This document shows, one piece after another, positions 43,862 through 55,104 of a DNA stretch of 64,000 nucleotides. The position numbers and the translations under genes were made by a program. How positions within the stretch are numbered: the first letter of the stretch is position 1; each line of letters begins with the position of its first letter. This stretch comes from Novosphingobium sp. 9. Lineage in GTDB: Bacteria > Pseudomonadota > Alphaproteobacteria > Sphingomonadales > Sphingomonadaceae. Where the stretch lies: positions 2,480,501 to 2,544,500 of the forward strand of contig NZ_CP022707.1 in NCBI RefSeq assembly GCF_025340265.1, read 5' to 3'. The notes beneath the pieces are model-generated. The model saw nothing but the letters and a program-made list of their open reading frames with translations. It was not told where the DNA came from and searched no databases.

Positions 43862-44350
43862 TCAGCCGCGACCGCGATATCCGGCGACGCCCTGATCGGG
43901 TGCCCACAAGCCTTCCGGCACCGGGCCGGACTGCCAGAACACGTCGATGGGGATGCCCCCGCGCGGATACCAGTATCCTCCGATGCGCAGCCACCTGGGC
44001 TTCATCTCGTCGAACAGGCGCTGCCCGATACCTACCGTCACATCCTCGTGAAAACCGCAGTGATTGCGGAATGAGCCAAGGAAGAGCTTGAGAGACTTCG
44101 ATTCCACGATGGTCTCACCAGGTGCGTAATCGAGCACCAGATGCGCGAAATCGGGTTGGCCGGTGACGGGGCACAGCGACGTAAATTCCGGCGCGGCGAA
44201 GCGCACCATGTAGAGCGATCCCACGCGCGGATTGGGCACATAATCGAGCACTGCCGCTTCGGGAGAGGCAGGAAGTGCGCTCTGCTGCCCGAGATGCAGC
44301 GGCATGCCGGAGGCGGGGTTCTGTGCGGTCTTGTCGGTTGTCTCGTCCAT
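43862..44350 (-). CDS. queF: NADPH-dependent 7-cyano-7-deazaguanine reductase
   Basis: A 162-residue protein of the short QueF type, start at the ATG at 44350; an in-frame ATG at 44362 and the frame to 44449 are less likely. [16 protein letters not shown] contains the thioimide-forming cysteine, [21 protein letters not shown] holds the nucleotide-binding residues, and [16 protein letters not shown] is the C-terminal motif. It reduces preQ0 to preQ1 in queuosine synthesis. No other queuosine gene is beside it. Its stop is six bases from the stop of the small cysteine protein gene. Confidence 0.95.
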
Positions 44351-44490
44351 GCCTAAGGCCATGCCTGCAATGGCGCGCGGCGGCAAGCGGTCAATCGCGG
44401 CTCCTTGCCATTCCGTCGTGTTCAAAAATGGCGGCAATGCGGGATTCACGGGCGGTTCAGGCTGGTATGGGTGGGGTTAAAAAGAGAGCA

Positions 44491-45842
44491 ATGAGGGGTG
44501 TGATGGTTTCGGGTCGCGACAGGTTTTTTGCGCAGGGTTGTGCTGTTTTTCTTTGCGGAACAGCGCTTTGCGTGGTGAGCGGACAGGCGGCACTCGCGCA
44601 GTCTTCCGATCCGCAGGTCTGGTCGCTGCAACCCTCGCCGCAGACCAGCGCGACGCCGCAGGCATCAGGCCCGGTGGACGCCCAAAATCCGGTTGTTCGC
44701 CCAAAGGTTGATCCCACTTCAACGGCAACGCCAGTGGTCGTTCCGAGCGCGGCTGCCACCCCCAAACCGACGGTCATTTCGCCGCCCAAGCCGGTTGCTA
44801 CATCGCGTCCAACCGAAACAGCGCCTCGGACGCCAAAACCGGCGCCCACGCCGCGTCCAACGGCGACTGCGGCGCCGGAAAGTGCCACAACATCAACACC
44901 TTCACCTTCGGTCACACCCACGCCGGAACCCGTTCCGAGCCCGATTTCTCAAGACGAGGCTAAACCGCCCCAAACGGGGTCTAACCCGACCCTAACGGGG
45001 TCTAACCCGGCCCAAGCGCCTTCTACCGCCTCCACACCGACCACTGGCAGCGCCACACCCTGGCTGTGGCCGCTCGTCGGCGCAGGCGCGGTGCTGGCGA
45101 TCGCCGGCGCACTGATCTGGCGTCGACGCAGCCGCGTCGAAGTGACCTACGACGAGCCCGCCGAGACCTTCGTGGAACCCGCGCCGTCGCCTGTTCCAAC
45201 ACCTCCTCTTGCCCCCATCGCACCTTCGCGCCCGGCGCCAGCTCCCGAGCCCGCCTCACCCCCTCGCCCGGTCGCAGCCCCCGCACCCGTACCTGTCGCC
45301 CCCCGCCGCCTGCCACCACGCCCATCGCGCAGGAGGGCGGCGCGCGCTTCGAGTTCGAGCCGCTCTCGCTGCGTCTCTCGCTCGTCTATGCCACGCTCTC
45401 GTTCCGGCTGGTGGTCAGCAATCCGACCGATGCGGACATGGCGCCCTCGCAACTGGTGGGCGATCTGATCTCCGCCCACGCCTCGCTGGGGCGCGAGCAG
45501 CAACTGGCACCCGTCCCCGCGCAGCTTTTCGCGATCCGGAGCGTGCCTGCCATCGCACCGGGAGAAACCGCCGAACTGCGCTGCGAAGTGCAGTTGCCGC
45601 TCAACCGCGTGATCCCGCTCGAACGCGGACAGGCGCGCTTCCTCGTGCCCCTGCTGCGCCTTGCCCACGTGGCGGCGGACGGCACCTGGCAGCGGCTGGT
45701 GCTGACCGTGGGCACCGAGAGCGAAAGCGGCGTTGCCCCGCTGCGGCTCGACACCGGATCGCAGACTTTCGGCCAGCTTGGCGCCAGAGTGGTGGAATCG
45801 AGCCGCCATATGCCCCTCGACCCGGTGCGCGCCACCGGGTAG
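44491..45842 (+). CDS. Pro/Thr/Ala-rich membrane protein (frameshifted in this sequence)
   Basis: A signal peptide (CAVFLCGTALCVVSGQAALAQ) is followed by about 150 residues rich in Pro, Thr, Ala and Ser, then a transmembrane helix (PLVGAGAVLAIAGALIW) with an arginine-rich stop, a second Pro-rich linker, and a C-terminal domain with SFRLVVSNPTDADMAPSQLVGDLISAH and APGETAELRCEVQLPLNRVIPL, which looks like an Ig-like beta-sandwich. As given, the frame breaks at the C6 run 45299-45304; one added C restores VAPPPPATTPIAQEGG, giving 450 residues. The function is unknown. The gene is 26 bases before metC. Confidence 0.78.
44974..45009 (+). repeat. Direct repeat ACGGGGTCTAACCCG in the Pro/Thr-rich linker
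   Basis: Two identical 15-base copies (44974-44988 and 44995-45009), 21 bases apart, encode the repeated peptide TGSNP. They lie inside the low-complexity part of the membrane protein gene. The period is a multiple of three, so copy-number change would leave the frame intact. Confidence 0.8.
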
Positions 45843-48168: not shown

Positions 48169-48545
48169 GTGTAACCGGCATCGGTGTGACTGGCATCGGC
48201 GGACTGTTCTTCCGCGCCCGCGATCCCGAGGCGCTGGCGGCGTGGTATCACCAGTATCTCGGCATCGGCCCCAATACCGAAGGCGACGGCTACGAGCCCT
48301 GGGCGCAGCAAGCCGGGCCGACGGTGTTCATGCCCTTCCCCGCCGATACCGATTACTGGCCTGCCGAGCGGCAGTGGATGCTCAACCTGCGGGTCGCCGA
48401 TCTCGACGCGCTGATCGCGAAATTACAGGCGGACGGGATTGCCGTGGCGACCAACCCGGAATGGGATTCGCCCGAGATGGGCCGCTTTGCGCGCATCCAT
48501 GACCCGGAAGGCCATGCGCTGGAGCTGTGGCAGCCGCCAGAATAA
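48165..48545 (+). CDS. VOC family (glyoxalase-like) protein
   Basis: A 126-residue vicinal-oxygen-chelate protein. GIGGLFFRARDPEALAAWYHQYLGIGP and the second half (NLRVADLDALIAKLQADGIAV; RFARIHDPEGHALELWQPPE) form the paired beta-alpha-beta-beta-beta units, with metal-ligand candidates in HDPEGHALELW. The substrate is unknown; many relatives are annotated as glyoxalases or dioxygenases. It is translationally coupled to the mscS gene. Confidence 0.85.
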   Translation: MSVTGIGVTGIGGLFFRARDPEALAAWYHQYLGIGPNTEGDGYEPWAQQAGPTVFMPFPADTDYWPAERQWMLNLRVADLDALIAKLQADGIAVATNPEWDSPEMGRFARIHDPEGHALELWQPPE

Positions 48546-48551
48546 GGGCGC

Positions 48552-49450
48552 TCAGTTGGTCTGGCGGTGCAGCTCGCGCTCCGGCTCCAGCCGGTTGCGG
48601 CCCTTGGCGCGGGCGCTGAACAGCGCCATCTCGGCGCGCTCCAGCGTGCTGTCGAGGCTCTGGGCAATACGCACGACGCCGCCGCTGGCGGTCAGGCGCA
48701 GGCCATCGTTGCCCAGCACCTCGTGCCGCTCCGAAAGCGTCGAGACCACGCGGGCGCAGATCGCACGCGCGGCTTCGGGCGTGGTGCGCGGAAGCAGCAC
48801 GGCGAAACGCTCAGAGCCGATGCGCGAGATCACGTCTTCCTCGCGCAGGGTCTCGCGCAGGAGATCGGCGAACGTGCAGAGCACATCGTCCCCCGCGCCT
48901 GCCCGTAGCGCATGTTGATCGCCTTGAAGAAATCGATCCCGAACAGCGCAACGCAGCCCTCGATCCCGCGCGTGAGCATGTGCTCCAGCATCGAGACGAA
49001 GGCCCGGCGGTTGCTGAGCCCGGTCAGCGCATCGCTGTAGGTGGCGGCGAACAGCTGGTCGCGCAGCGCGCGGCGCTCGTCCACCGAGCGCAGGATCGCC
49101 AGTGCGCCCCAGGCCTTGCCGTCGTTGCGGTGGAGCGCGCGGCAGCGGATCTCGAACCAGCTTTCGCGCGCATCGGTGGTGACGGCGGGAAATTCGACCC
49201 AGCCGCTCTCGCGCCCGGCAATCGCCTCGGCCAGTGCGGTAGCCACGCGGGCAAGGTGCGAGGGTTCGACGAGATCCGGCAACGTCTCGATCCCGTTCGC
49301 GGCGCCCGACTGGCCGACCAGCCGCGCCAGCGCCGGCGAACTCTCGACGATATGGCCGCTCGCATCGATCTTGAGGATGATGTCCGGCCCGCCCTCGGCC
49401 AGCATGCCGTAGAGCGCCGAAGTCTCCTGATCGGTGATGGTTATCGGCAT
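48552..49450 (-). CDS. PAS-GGDEF protein with degenerate active site (frameshifted in this sequence)
   Basis: Residues 1-130 form a PAS domain and the rest a GGDEF domain (DALTGLSNRRAF at about 140-151). The active site is degenerate: the signature reads GSERF (212-216) and the first motif GIDFFKAINMRYG lacks the usual NDxxGH. The inhibitory I-site RxxD (REED, 203-206) is kept exactly five residues before GSERF, so it may bind cyclic-di-GMP instead of making it. As given, the frame breaks at the C5 run 48890-48894; one added C restores GQARGDDVLC and gives 299 residues. The ATG at 49450 is chosen; a TTG at 49468 is possible. Confidence 0.83.
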
Positions 49451-49580
49451 GGGCGGTTTTTCCGTCAAAGTCTCAAAACGTTAGATAACGGCGTAAAATA
49501 CGTGTTAATCGGGTTATTTAACGCACTGGAAACAATAGCTTATAATACCACTTCGTGGCACCTTGCGAAAGTCAGGCACT

Positions 49581-50237
49581 TTACAGGTCGATCATCACGC
49601 GCACCCGCTCGGGCGAAATGCCCAGTGCGAGCGCGATATCTTCACGGGCTTTCGCCACCGCCTCGCCCACGCCCGAACCGATCCCGGAGATCGAGCGGCG
49701 GGGTCGAAGATCCGCCGTTGTCACGCCAAGCGCCGCGGCCAGTCCTTCGAGTCTTTCGGCCACCGGCTTCGCCCGCCCCTGCTCCCAGGCCCAGACGGTC
49801 GGCTTGCTGACGCCCAGCGCGGCAGCCAGTTGCGCCTGCGTCAATCCGCGCGCCTTACGCAAGCGATAAAGGCGCTCGGCAAAACCGCCTTCCGTCTGCG
49901 AACCTGCCGGCAAGCCGACACTCTCGGCCCGCGCGCGCAGGCGAACCGCACTCAGGACATGGGGCGGCAAGCTTTGGGCGAACGCGCAGCCGAACAGATC
50001 ATCCACCGACCAGACGACATGCGCACCGACGGAGCCTGCCTCCGGCAGATCCACATCGATCGTCTCGCCCGGCGCGAGTATCGTGTCCGTCTGCAGCAGA
50101 GCCCCGGTTTCGGAAATGTTGAGCACACGCACCAGCGCGCCCGTACTCCCCGCTGCGCCCGTGGTTTCGAGCAGCAACCGACGGCGTGGCGCGCGGGCCG
50201 CTCCGGGTGTCTCCTCAAAATGGGCATCGATGGCCAC
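49581..50237 (-). CDS. PilZ-HTH fusion regulator
   Basis: A 218-residue protein. Residues about 15-98 resemble a PilZ domain: RAPRRR (15-20) stands for the RxxxR motif and NISETG (40-45) for D/NxSxxG, with HVVWSVDDLFGCAF following. Residues 120-177 are an XRE helix-turn-helix (RLRKARGLTQAQLAAALGVSKPTVWAWEQGRAKP). A cyclic-di-GMP-binding domain joined to a DNA-binding domain suggests a transcription factor that responds to the second messenger. It lies between the degenerate GGDEF gene and the GGDEF-EAL gene. Binding of cyclic-di-GMP is inferred from motifs only. Confidence 0.78.
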   Translation of the reverse strand: MAIDAHFEETPGAARAPRRRLLLETTGAAGSTGALVRVLNISETGALLQTDTILAPGETIDVDLPEAGSVGAHVVWSVDDLFGCAFAQSLPPHVLSAVRLRARAESVGLPAGSQTEGGFAERLYRLRKARGLTQAQLAAALGVSKPTVWAWEQGRAKPVAERLEGLAAALGVTTADLRPRRSISGIGSGVGEAVAKAREDIALALGISPERVRVMIDL

Positions 50238-50286
50238 GTCTGCGCTCCAGGTTCGCTGAACAGAGACCCTGGCAGACCGACCTTAA

Positions 50287-50314
50287 GATTCGGTTAGGTG
50301 CCGACTAACGAATC
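50287..50314. promoter_or_regulatory. Hairpin in the divergent region of the cyclic-di-GMP cluster
   Basis: GATTC(G)GTTAG pairs with CTAACGAATC around a short loop, with one bulged G. It lies 49 bases upstream of the PilZ-HTH start in a 202-base AT-rich gap. It could be an operator for the PilZ-HTH protein or a leader structure of either divergent gene. Confidence 0.4.
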
Positions 50315-50351
50315 GCGAATCGGATTTCGCAATTTTCCACGCCACACAAAC

Positions 50352-50376
50352 TACGGAAATTACGTGATTTTCCGTA
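50352..50376. promoter_or_regulatory. Inverted repeat upstream of the MHYT-GGDEF-EAL gene
   Basis: TACGGAAA and TTTCCGTA (8 bp each) flank a 9-base AT-rich spacer, 63 bases before the GTG start of the MHYT protein. Its size and symmetry fit a dimeric regulator site; the adjacent PilZ-HTH protein is the obvious candidate. Confidence 0.42.
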
Positions 50377-50439
50377 TCATTTACCCGGTGTTTACGAACA
50401 TACCCCTAGGAAATCCGTACAAGTATAACGGGACGCACC

Positions 50440-53256
50440 GTGTTCGACATTCTGACCTGCATTCGTGACGAGCACGATGTGCGACTCGTCGCCCTCGCTG
50501 CTGCGATCTGCTTCCTCTCCTCGCTGGCAGCCGTGCTGCTGCTGCGCCAGGCCCGCCTTGGCGCCAAGGACGAGCGCCTGCGCTGGCGCTATCTTGCGGG
50601 GATAGGCGGCGGCTTCGGCGTCTGGGCAACCCACTTCGTGGCGATGCTCGGATACACGCCGGGCGTAGTGATCGGCTACGACACCCTGCTGACCGTCATC
50701 TCGCTGGCCCTGCCGATCGTCACCACCTGCTTCGGTTTCTCGATCGCGCTCGACCATCGTTCACGCGCCGGGCTGCTGATCGGCAGCCTTGCCACGGGCG
50801 CGGGCTTTGCCGCCATGCATTACACCGGCATGGAAGCGATGACGCTTCCCGCCACGCTGCACTGGGAACCGGGCCACGTCGTTGCTTCGGTCGTGCTGGC
50901 GATCGTGCCCACCCCTTTCGCGATGTACTGGGCGCTGCACGGCTGCCGCCTGACCTCGATCCTTTCGGCAACCCTCAGCCTGACGCTTGCCGTCGTGCTG
51001 CTGCACTTCACGAGCATGGCCGGGCTGCACCTGACGCCGAACCGCCTCGATCCCTACGGCCTGATCATCGCGCCGCACATCATGGCTTCGGTCATCACCG
51101 CCATCTCGCTGAGCCTGCTGGCGCTGCTGATCACAGCCCTGATCATCCATCGCCGCACCCGCGAGGCCATCCATGCCAGCGAGCGTCAGTTCTCGTTTCT
51201 GGTACGCGGTATTTCCGATTGCGCGATCTACATGCTCGATACCGAGGCCCATGTCGCCAACTGGAACGCCGGTGCGCAGCGACTGAAAGGCTATAGCGCC
51301 ATCGAGGCTATCGGCATGCCGCTGGCCGCTTTCTACACGCCGGAGGATCGCGAAAGCGGATTGCCGGAGCGCGCGATCGCCACGGCTCTGGCCGAAGGCA
51401 AGTTCACGGCAGAGGGCTGGCGCATGCGCCGCGACGGCACCCGGTTCTGGGCTCACGTCACTATCGAGCCGTTTCGCAATCATGACGGTGTGCATATCGG
51501 CTTTGCCAAGATCACCCGCGACATGACCCGCTTCAAGGAACACAACGACCGGCTCGAAAACACCTCGCGCCAGCTCGACACCGCGCTTGCCCACATGCAC
51601 CAGGGGCTGTGCCTGTTCGATGCGGACGAACGCATCGTACTGCGCAATCGTCGTTTCCTTGAAATGTACAATCTGCCTGCGGATGCCTGCCCGCCCGGCA
51701 CCTCGCTGGACGAGGCCATTCTGGAAGCGCTGACCGCGCGCCTCGGCGATCGCCCCAGCGCGGAGCGACTGGCCCTTTCCAACGATGCCATCCACCGCGC
51801 CGTCAACACGCCGGATTATCCAGCAGAAGTGTTCGAGTACGGCGCCCTGTCCGTCTCCATCGTCAGCCGCCGCATGGACGACGGCGGATGGGTGACGACC
51901 TTCGACGACGTGACCGCACAGCGCCAGTCCGAAGCGCGTATCGAGCATATGGCGCTGCATGACGGCCTGACCGGCCTGCCCAACCGCACCCGTTTCGAAC
52001 TGTGGCTGGACGAGCATCTTCCCGAGGCGGAGCGCGCTGGCCGCAAGCTGGCCCTCGTCATGCTCGACCTCGACCGGTTCAAGGAAATCAACGACACCTG
52101 GGGGCACTCCTGGGGCGATGTCGTGCTCGTCGAATTCGCGCGTCGCCTCGGTCTGGACCTTCAGGAAGACGAGATCGTCGCGCGTCTGGGCGGCGACGAG
52201 TTCGCGCTGGCCAAGGAATATTCCAATCAGGCGGACCTCGCCGAATTCCTGCGTCGGGTGACAGGTGCCCTGTCGCAGCCGATCGTCCATGAGGAACAGG
52301 AACTGCCGATCGGCGGCAGCGTCGGCGTAGCGGTATTCCCGCAGGATGGCGGCGACCGAGAGGCGCTGCTGAACAATGCCGATCTGGCCATGTATCGCGC
52401 CAAGTCGCAGCTGATCGAGCAGCTGTGCTATTACGAGCCGAGCATGGACGAAAGCGCGCGCGAGCGTCGCCAGATCGCCAACGACCTGCGCCACGCGGTC
52501 GACCGGCGCGAACTCGCGCTGCTCTACCAGCCGCAGCACAACCTGCGCACGGGCGCGCTGTCAGGCTACGAAGCCCTGCTGCGCTGGCATCATCCCTCGC
52601 GCGGGATGGTATCGCCGATGGACTTCATTCCCATCGCCGAGGAAACCGGGCTGATCATCCCCATCGGCGAATGGGTCATGCGACAGGCCTGCCGCGAAGC
52701 CTGCCTGTGGCCCACCGAGGAACGCGTGGCGGTGAACCTTTCCCCCGTCCAGCTGGTGCAGCCCGGCCTTGTCGACGTGGTGACGCGCATTCTTCGGGAA
52801 ACCGGGCTCCCGGCTCATCGGCTGGAGCTGGAGATCACCGAGACCGCGATCATCTCGGACAAGGCGCGCGCGCTGGCGAACCTGCGCCAGATCAAGGAAC
52901 TGGGCGTTGCCATCGCGATGGACGATTTCGGCACCGGCTATTCCTCGCTCGATACCCTGCACGCCTTCCCGTTCGACAAGATCAAGATCGACAAGTCGTT
53001 CCTGATCGAATCGGACACGAACAATCAGGCGCTGGCGATCATTCGCGCGGTGCTGGCGCTGGGCCAGTCGCTCAACATCCCGGTTCTGGCCGAAGGTGTA
53101 GAGACGGGCGTGCAGTACGAGTTGCTGATCGCCGAAGGCTGCGAGGAAGCGCAGGGCTATTACCTTGGCCGTCCCGCCGCGCCGCCCAGCCTCGTCGCGG
53201 CGAACGACATCTTTCGCAAGGCGCAGGCCGATGCGCGGACAGCCGTGAACGACTGA
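50440..53256 (+). CDS. MHYT-PAS-GGDEF-EAL cyclic-di-GMP enzyme
   Basis: A 938-residue protein starting at GTG. Residues 1-240 hold seven hydrophobic segments with three MHYT-type motifs (WATHFVAM at 62, AMHYTGM at 125, LHFTSM at 188), a putative metal or diatomic-gas sensor. A PAS domain (about 245-365) and a PAS-like region (375-495) follow, then GGDEF (intact LGGDEF at 583-588) and EAL (YEALLRW at 710, with DDFGTGYSS and AEGVET conserved). The I-site RxxD is absent (LQED), so feedback inhibition should be weak. Both a cyclase and a phosphodiesterase site appear complete; net activity cannot be told. Confidence 0.92.
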   Translation: MFDILTCIRDEHDVRLVALAAAICFLSSLAAVLLLRQARLGAKDERLRWRYLAGIGGGFGVWATHFVAMLGYTPGVVIGYDTLLTVISLALPIVTTCFGFSIALDHRSRAGLLIGSLATGAGFAAMHYTGMEAMTLPATLHWEPGHVVASVVLAIVPTPFAMYWALHGCRLTSILSATLSLTLAVVLLHFTSMAGLHLTPNRLDPYGLIIAPHIMASVITAISLSLLALLITALIIHRRTREAIHASERQFSFLVRGISDCAIYMLDTEAHVANWNAGAQRLKGYSAIEAIGMPLAAFYTPEDRESGLPERAIATALAEGKFTAEGWRMRRDGTRFWAHVTIEPFRNHDGVHIGFAKITRDMTRFKEHNDRLENTSRQLDTALAHMHQGLCLFDADERIVLRNRRFLEMYNLPADACPPGTSLDEAILEALTARLGDRPSAERLALSNDAIHRAVNTPDYPAEVFEYGALSVSIVSRRMDDGGWVTTFDDVTAQRQSEARIEHMALHDGLTGLPNRTRFELWLDEHLPEAERAGRKLALVMLDLDRFKEINDTWGHSWGDVVLVEFARRLGLDLQEDEIVARLGGDEFALAKEYSNQADLAEFLRRVTGALSQPIVHEEQELPIGGSVGVAVFPQDGGDREALLNNADLAMYRAKSQLIEQLCYYEPSMDESARERRQIANDLRHAVDRRELALLYQPQHNLRTGALSGYEALLRWHHPSRGMVSPMDFIPIAEETGLIIPIGEWVMRQACREACLWPTEERVAVNLSPVQLVQPGLVDVVTRILRETGLPAHRLELEITETAIISDKARALANLRQIKELGVAIAMDDFGTGYSSLDTLHAFPFDKIKIDKSFLIESDTNNQALAIIRAVLALGQSLNIPVLAEGVETGVQYELLIAEGCEEAQGYYLGRPAAPPSLVAANDIFRKAQADARTAVND

Positions 53257-54318: not shown

Positions 54319-55104
54319 ATGACCATGACACCTGCAACCCCCAAAGGCCGAGTCCATCTCGTCGGCGCCGGTCCGGGCGATCCCGACCTGCTGACGCTGC
54401 GCGCCGCGCGGCTGCTGGAAGGCGCCTCGCTGGTGGTGCACGATGGCCTCGTCGACACCGCGATCCTTGCCATGGTGAACCCGGCGGCAGAGCGGATCTC
54501 GGTCGCCAAGGCGCGCTCGCGCCACACGATGCAGCAGGAGGACATCAACGCCCTGCTCGTGCGCGAAGCCCTTGCGGGCCGCGACGTGGTACGCCTCAAG
54601 GGCGGCGATCCCTTCGTATTCGGACGCGGCGGCGAAGAGGCCGAGGCCTGCCGCGCCGCCGGTATCGAGGTTGAGGTCGTCCCCGGCATCTCCTCCGCGC
54701 TGGGCGCTTCGGCTGCCGCGCAAATTCCGCTGACCCACCGCGATCACGCCTCGATCGTCTCGTTCGTGGCGGGCCAGTGCAAGGGCCTGACCGAGCAGGA
54801 CTGGTCCGGCCTTGCCGGCAAGGGCCGCACGCTCGTGATCTTCATGGGCCTCGCCACCGCCGCGCAGATCAGCGAGAAGCTGATGGCCGACGGTCTTGCC
54901 CCCGATGTGCCCGTCGCCGTGATCGAGAACGCCACCCGCGCGCAGATGCGCGTGCTGCGCAGTCCGCTCGCAGGCCTTGAGGCCCTCGTTTCCTCGCACC
55001 GGGTGAAGAGCCCGGCGCTCATCGTCATCGGCGATGTTGCCCGCGCGCGCGGCGACCTTGCCGATCATACCATTCGCGCTCTGGCGCTGGAGGCAGGCAA
55101 GTGA
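54319..55104 (+). CDS. cobA: Uroporphyrinogen-III C-methyltransferase
   Basis: A 261-residue SAM-dependent methyltransferase. GRVHLVGAGPGDPDLLTLRAARLL, LVVHDGLVD and VVRLKGGDPFVFGRGGEEAEA are diagnostic, and PLTHRDHAS and the ATRAQMRVLRSPL region follow. It makes precorrin-2 for siroheme. No CysG-like oxidase/ferrochelatase domain is fused; that step must be done elsewhere. It starts the sulfite reduction operon; its stop overlaps the DUF2849 start. Confidence 0.93.
   Translation: MTMTPATPKGRVHLVGAGPGDPDLLTLRAARLLEGASLVVHDGLVDTAILAMVNPAAERISVAKARSRHTMQQEDINALLVREALAGRDVVRLKGGDPFVFGRGGEEAEACRAAGIEVEVVPGISSALGASAAAQIPLTHRDHASIVSFVAGQCKGLTEQDWSGLAGKGRTLVIFMGLATAAQISEKLMADGLAPDVPVAVIENATRAQMRVLRSPLAGLEALVSSHRVKSPALIVIGDVARARGDLADHTIRALALEAGK

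Follow-up and report, generated by a model that had tools for sequence, protein, structure and literature searches.

Here we describe a two-gene locus of Novosphingobium sp. 9, located on a stretch of 64,000 nucleotides (contig NZ_CP022707.1, positions 2,480,501 to 2,544,500 of the forward strand) that we call the window and to which all positions refer. The locus encodes a protein that joins a PilZ domain to a DNA-binding domain of the XRE type (PilZ-XRE; 49581..50237, minus strand, 218 amino acids (aa), GTG start) and, behind it on the same strand, a PAS-GGDEF protein whose gene is split in the window. The first half of the latter gene (48830..49468, likely ATG at 49450) carries PAS and the start of GGDEF (GIDFFKAINMRYGQA), and the second half, in a different frame (48552..48884), carries the I-site REED followed by GSERF in place of GGDEF. 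The pair is accompanied by two DNA elements, a palindrome between the genes and a box in front of PilZ-XRE. The genome comprises 4.39 Mb, and its best-named relatives belong to Novosphingobium.

Methods

The PilZ-XRE protein was analysed with Pfam, family alignments and AlphaFold2. Locus counts refer to the best 80 of 246 PilZ-XRE-encoding stretches obtained in a scan of named genomes; protein relatives are the best 120 of 485, for which the 7,997 candidates with the most common words were scored. Loci L197 and L202 (unparsed) and L181 (start not located) were excluded from the counts, as were L036-L039 from those of the gaps (no gap). The upstream stretch of L103 lies inside its gene and was also excluded, which left 79 relatives for the upstream repeat test. 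The PAS-GGDEF gene was located in 74 of the 80 relatives, on which its motif counts are based. A class-wide scan of 385 genomes (profile A1 at 1e-12) scored up to seven candidates per genome. The matrix for the box derives from the upstream stretches themselves, which makes its scores upstream of PilZ-XRE circular; counts of the word CTAA-N7-TTAA provide the independent test.

Results

The product of 49581-50237 matches PilZ (PF07238, E 1.3e-8, 35.5 bits with a Pfam cut-off of 22.5) over about residues 1-105 and, in the same frame, a helix-turn-helix (HTH) domain of the XRE/Cro type (HTH_3, 4.2e-15, above the Pfam cut-off) over residues 119-177, which bears out the fusion of PilZ to a DNA-binding domain read by an initial annotation. 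The motifs expected for binding of cyclic di-GMP (c-di-GMP) in the window protein (RAPRR...NISETG) consist of RxxxR at residues 15-19 and NISETG at 40-45. Both RxxxR and NxSxxG are present in 76 of 80 aligned proteins, the window's among them, and the Asn, Ser and Gly of the second motif are invariant across all 80. Among the 120 proteins listed, all but the window's own are 45-55% identical to it, and 113 carry the PilZ Pfam mark together with the HTH. The fusion is real, intact and widespread, and its conservation and motifs give good support to a predicted one-protein c-di-GMP transcription factor. Elsewhere in the same genome, the one further match to PilZ-XRE is a weak PilZ hit.

AlphaFold2 modelled the whole protein with a pLDDT of 86 and a pTM of 0.52, and the PilZ part alone with values of 87.5 and 0.78. 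Foldseek matches were weak; MrkH structures are among the structural matches of the PilZ model. A sequence search of the PDB with the PilZ part alone had no PilZ chain among the matches listed (E up to 5), and no PilZ chain is among the 50 matches listed by Foldseek and VIA-align 2 for the whole model, which are alignments to the HTH part or HppE/MPnS/HEPD enzymes. The C-terminal tail (window 49581-49640, minus strand; ending VRVMIDL/VRIMIEL) is strongly conserved in the family and could possibly be a dimer element. A 141-aa frame in genome G010 matches residues 119-218 of PilZ-XRE.

PilZ-XRE is carried by a family of bacteria from soil and water. The 80 loci come from Novosphingobium, Erythrobacter, Porphyrobacter, Altererythrobacter, Tsuneonella, Pelagerythrobacter, Croceicoccus, Caenibius, Sphingopyxis and other Sphingomonadales; two derive from metagenome-assembled genomes named just Proteobacteria and Alphaproteobacteria, and the remaining named relatives are all Sphingomonadales. 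Five of the 385 genomes in the class-wide scan matched, at full length the genome of Novosphingobium sp. 9 itself and one from the same family (G205), with the other three matches covering one domain; a spread beyond the order was rejected on these numbers. Plasmid records of Novosphingobium and Croceicoccus contain three weak relatives (27-38% identity). A link to flagella was likewise rejected: flagellin occurs in 54 of 61 genomes independently of PilZ-XRE, and one genome (G008) has PilZ-XRE without flagellin.

PilZ-XRE and PAS-GGDEF form a conserved unit, beyond chance. The PAS-GGDEF gene follows on the same strand in 72 of the 80 loci, or 72 of the 76 in which the contig continues. It lies on the opposite strand in L078 and L089 and was not found in L060, L064, L065, L090, L095 and L099, four of which reach a contig end within about 300 bp. 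In 21 loci other than the nine with an MHYT neighbour (see below), a relative of the window open reading frame (ORF) 54319-55104, which we take to be the siroheme gene of the sulfate-assimilation cluster, lies directly ahead of PilZ-XRE. Upstream of PilZ-XRE in L031, L040, L042, L043, L053 and L054 there is a conserved block around CCAGAATGGCTTTG...ATTAGG..AGCTTTA, which stands between PilZ-XRE and the gene ahead and may belong to the latter.

The PAS-GGDEF gene of the window is not intact. Its two ORFs match Pfam PAS_4 and GGDEF positions 2-55 (48830-49468) and GGDEF positions 59-161 (48552-48884), and a run of five G (48890..48894, minus strand) lies at or near the break. In all 74 relatives with the gene, a single ORF of 298-519 aa reads through this point and covers more than 80% of both halves. 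An assembly error is a fair explanation, because a second gene of the window (44275-45842, plus strand; ORFs 44275-45468 and 45066-45842) also looks split, which suggests small indel errors in this assembly; a true mutation is the alternative reading. The C-terminal part of that second gene has 43-50% identical relatives in nearby loci.

The catalytic motif [GSA]G[DE]EF is absent from all 74 PAS-GGDEF relatives, among which GSERF, the motif of the window, is the most frequent (30). The metal-binding Asp is retained in 20 of 74 and the adjacent guanine-contact Asp in none, and the Asn is present in 53; the roles of these residues are assumed from PleD. Judged by its motifs, the partner is a predicted pseudo-cyclase and not a cyclase. 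The I-site RxxD survives in 45 relatives, chiefly those on the Novosphingobium side; the other 29 have lost it. The initial annotation, which missed the frame break, had described a degenerate GGDEF protein that keeps only the I-site; as a putative receptor-like protein this description holds for the I-site-keeping part of the family. Five remoter PAS-GGDEF proteins, from genomes without full-length PilZ-XRE, have GGE-type motifs (GGEEF in L223 and L224).

The I-site also bears on the possibility that PilZ-XRE no longer senses c-di-GMP, its PilZ domain serving for dimerisation or protein contacts and PAS-GGDEF being the real, controlling sensor. Such an arrangement would agree with the weak Foldseek matches, with a one-residue shift of the Arg motif between clades in the family alignment and with the 45 partners that keep the I-site. 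The invariant residues of NxSxxG oppose it, as do the partners that have lost the I-site and still accompany PilZ-XRE, and we regard it as quite improbable.

The palindrome GTTANNTAAC occurs in 32 of 69 gaps between PilZ-XRE and PAS-GGDEF (68 relatives and the window), compared with 0.32 in shuffled sequences, and in 58 of 69 when up to one mismatch is allowed. Of 92 A + T-rich control windows, which overlap one another, 2 contain the exact form and 5 a copy with up to one mismatch. The 68 loci (1.04 Mb) contain 32 copies, of which 31 lie inside these gaps (18,198 bases) and one in the remaining approximately 1.02 Mb. The palindrome is often followed by a third half-site. In the window, the palindrome at 49513-49522 and a third half-site TAAC make up a candidate operator for PilZ-XRE at 49504..49522 (minus strand), and a second GTTANNTAAC palindrome is located at 49480..49489, 33 bp away from centre to centre. 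On the minus strand, positions 49569-49542 resemble a promoter (9/12); this is a consensus match only, with another such match on the plus strand, and would place both palindromes just downstream of a transcription start, in a repressor-like position. The operator of PilZ-XRE seems to be located here, ahead of PAS-GGDEF.

A role of the palindrome as RNA structure was set aside: its arms are invariant, which favours a protein site over an RNA hairpin, and the loop has two bases. Rfam returned sub-threshold matches alone for window 48400-50700 (window sequence only). In many Novosphingobium gaps (e.g. L040, L042 and L054), the palindrome is closely preceded by another conserved stretch, TGGTAAA...AATAACA. 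In gaps on the Erythrobacter side (L101, L110 and others), two inverted TAGTC...TTACTT...CTAAC-like units about 60 bp apart were seen by eye, with a smaller GAAAAC...GTTTTC repeat between them.

It is also conceivable that PilZ-XRE responds to c-di-GMP and regulates distant genes, that another regulator binds the palindrome and that the gene pairing reflects joint use. XRE regulators often have multiple targets. The palindrome is absent from all 81 upstream stretches of PilZ-XRE, by which an autoregulatory site of this type was rejected, and the strict triple half-site GTTANNTAACNNNNNTAAC is present in 3 of 14 genomes with PilZ-XRE. In a search of 26 genomes, this strict form occurred five times (four for the reversed control), three times at the PilZ-XRE locus (G000, G007 and G031); the copy at 49504-49522 is the sole one in the window's genome, and two further hits in G031 (L215 and L218) look like chance. 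Against this reading, the palindrome keeps to the gap that follows PilZ-XRE, and it was not found in the 4-kb stretches around the five remoter PAS-GGDEF genes in genomes without full-length PilZ-XRE. We consider this explanation less likely than regulation of the partner by PilZ-XRE, although it is the one we would take most seriously among the alternatives.

About 58-60 bp ahead of the PilZ-XRE start is the second element, the box TGCTAACCNAATCTTAACC. Of the 81 upstream stretches, 48 contain the word CTAA-N7-TTAA, namely those of 47 relatives (out of 80) and that of the window (here at 50283..50297, minus strand), compared with 0.1 in shuffles. The window and 71 of the 80 relatives have a site within 110 bp for which the box matrix gives more than 12 bits. 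In L031-L110 (2.39 Mb, both strands) the matrix has 83 hits, 10 of them at other places. The 11-bp spacing of the direct repeat fits the published CtrA site TTAA-N7-TTAAC (PMC7200025; PMC6180460), and we read the box as a putative CtrA site.

All 28 genomes searched contain a ctrA-like gene. A site with TTAACC at its end precedes ctrA by 103-117 bp in 13 of 13 genomes of the same genus with PilZ-XRE and by 108-133 bp in 12 of 12 without it; in one genome, such sites precede both ctrA, which passes the cut-off of NCBIfam CtrA, and a popZ-like gene, which passes that of Pfam DUF2497 and stays below that of NCBIfam PopZ. TAAC-N6-TTAAC(C) was also found before a 316-aa gene in all 10 readable of the 12 PilZ-XRE-negative genomes of the genus, two with a mismatch. 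In genome-wide counts, YTAA-N7-TTAA gives nine matches at eight places in the window's genome and 65 for the reversed control, and in every one of eight genomes TAAC-N6-TTAAC has fewer matches than its reversed control (44 versus 107 in total).

Several observations weigh against CtrA. The first half of the box is CTAA and not the published TTAA, the second half in the window is TTAAGG and not TTAACC, and the full published type TTAA-N7-TTAA occurs in 1 of 81 upstream stretches. In the window's genome, YTAA-N7-TTAAC occurs once, at another place, with 13 matches for the reversed control, and two readable genomes of other families (L179 and L180) have no such site before ctrA. The box could instead be an autoregulatory site of PilZ-XRE or belong to another factor, in line with the half-site TAAC that it has in common with the palindrome. 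The spacing and the presence of such sites before ctrA and the 316-aa gene in genomes of the genus that lack PilZ-XRE make this unlikely, and we retain the CtrA reading.

The 316-320 aa protein (L130:530-1477, minus strand; L134:1540-2499, plus strand; orthologs in L132, L137, L141, L152 and L155) is encoded in 16 of 16 genomes of the genus searched and has a CtrA-like box just before its start, whether or not the genome has PilZ-XRE. It has no match in Pfam or, for L130, on which NCBIfam was run, in NCBIfam, and is possibly a new member of the CtrA regulon. At L158 (C1:831211 of the window's genome), a gene for a single-domain PilZ protein (L158:1642-2013) has a further CTAA-N7-TTAA roughly 100 bp ahead of it, on the strand opposite to the gene.

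Upstream of PilZ-XRE, a divergent gap of 202 bp (50238-50439) leads to the gene of a 938-aa MHYT-PAS-PAS-GGDEF-EAL protein (50440..53256, plus strand), in which both catalytic motifs are present (GGDEF at residue 584, EALLRW at 711). The gap holds two inverted repeats, the palindrome CGAATCGCGA/TCGCGAATCG (50309..50322, 90% complementary) and TACGGAAA-N9-TTTCCGTA (50352..50376). This layout and the dual enzyme are as the initial annotation described them; from these it had drawn a three-gene circuit in which the MHYT protein makes or breaks the messenger read by PilZ-XRE and the GGDEF protein, and PilZ-XRE acts on 50238-50439. Apart from the intact GGDEF and EAL motifs and the divergent position, the circuit can draw on a common neighbourhood in 9 of 80 relatives (L036-L039, L041, L048, L050, L052 and L103). 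The MHYT gene is not there in the other 71, so that it is an occasional neighbour outside the conserved unit. Among the 81 upstream stretches, each repeat occurs in the window only, and a search of the 300 bp ahead of PilZ-XRE detected neither of them in the 79 countable relatives. An operator in the divergent gap was rejected for this reason, the conserved candidate lying between PilZ-XRE and PAS-GGDEF. The three-gene circuit is therefore very unlikely, and what carries over from the earlier interpretation is the idea of the fusion and, for part of the family, that of the receptor-like degenerate GGDEF.

Discussion

We propose, with a probability of roughly 0.5, that the locus is a conserved two-gene c-di-GMP module of Sphingomonadales in which a CtrA-linked PilZ-XRE regulates its pseudo-cyclase partner. 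CtrA would help to set the expression of PilZ-XRE through a promoter with a CtrA-like site, and c-di-GMP bound to the PilZ domain would modify the DNA binding of the XRE domain. The main site of PilZ-XRE would be the palindrome, often with the third half-site, through which the level of PAS-GGDEF is set. The PAS-controlled pseudo-cyclase probably still binds c-di-GMP where the I-site is kept, and may feed back on the c-di-GMP pool or on PilZ-XRE itself.

PopA, PelD and SgmT are degenerate GGDEF proteins that act as I-site receptors. The partner resembles this class of receptors (cited as a class in PMC4151990) in the lack of the catalytic motif and the frequent retention of RxxD, and differs in being PAS-GGDEF only, in the loss of the I-site in 29 of 74 and in its steady neighbour PilZ-XRE. 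As proposed here for PilZ-XRE, the PilZ protein MrkH of Klebsiella acts directly as a c-di-GMP-dependent transcription factor, an activator (PMC3161979; PMC5055493); in MrkH, however, the PilZ domain is named as the DNA-binding part (PMC5055493), whereas PilZ-XRE has a separate, complete HTH after PilZ. BldD of Streptomyces is an XRE-type HTH factor under c-di-GMP control with a c-di-GMP-mediated dimer, but its C-terminal domain binds c-di-GMP without a previously known motif (PMC4151990), and PilZ-XRE has one. XrpA of Cereibacter is an XRE regulator tied to the CtrA network; it represses ctrA, so that the wiring is reversed relative to PilZ-XRE, and PilZ is not mentioned in the main text of that paper (PMC11999139).

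Full-text literature searches, with most subscription journals outside their coverage, listed no paper describing a fusion of the PilZ-XRE or PilZ-HTH kind, and XRE does not occur in a 2025 review of c-di-GMP effectors (PMC12564702). Tentatively, PilZ-XRE may be the first transcription factor found to have a classical repressor-type HTH under the control of a canonical PilZ domain. It might then act as a private switch, with CtrA setting its level, c-di-GMP its activity and a pseudo-cyclase that reads the same messenger as dedicated target, in a feedback module found across the order.

The discovery of transcription factors that sense c-di-GMP has mostly had to rely on experiment, since recognisable binding motifs are missing from them (PMC4151990); MrkH is an exception. 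With a widespread PilZ-XRE family and its specific candidate operator, the step from messenger level to transcription can be tested directly. If the proposed module is real, it would link c-di-GMP with the CtrA network of Sphingomonadales, and c-di-GMP regulators with an HTH gated by a canonical PilZ domain would become predictable from sequence.

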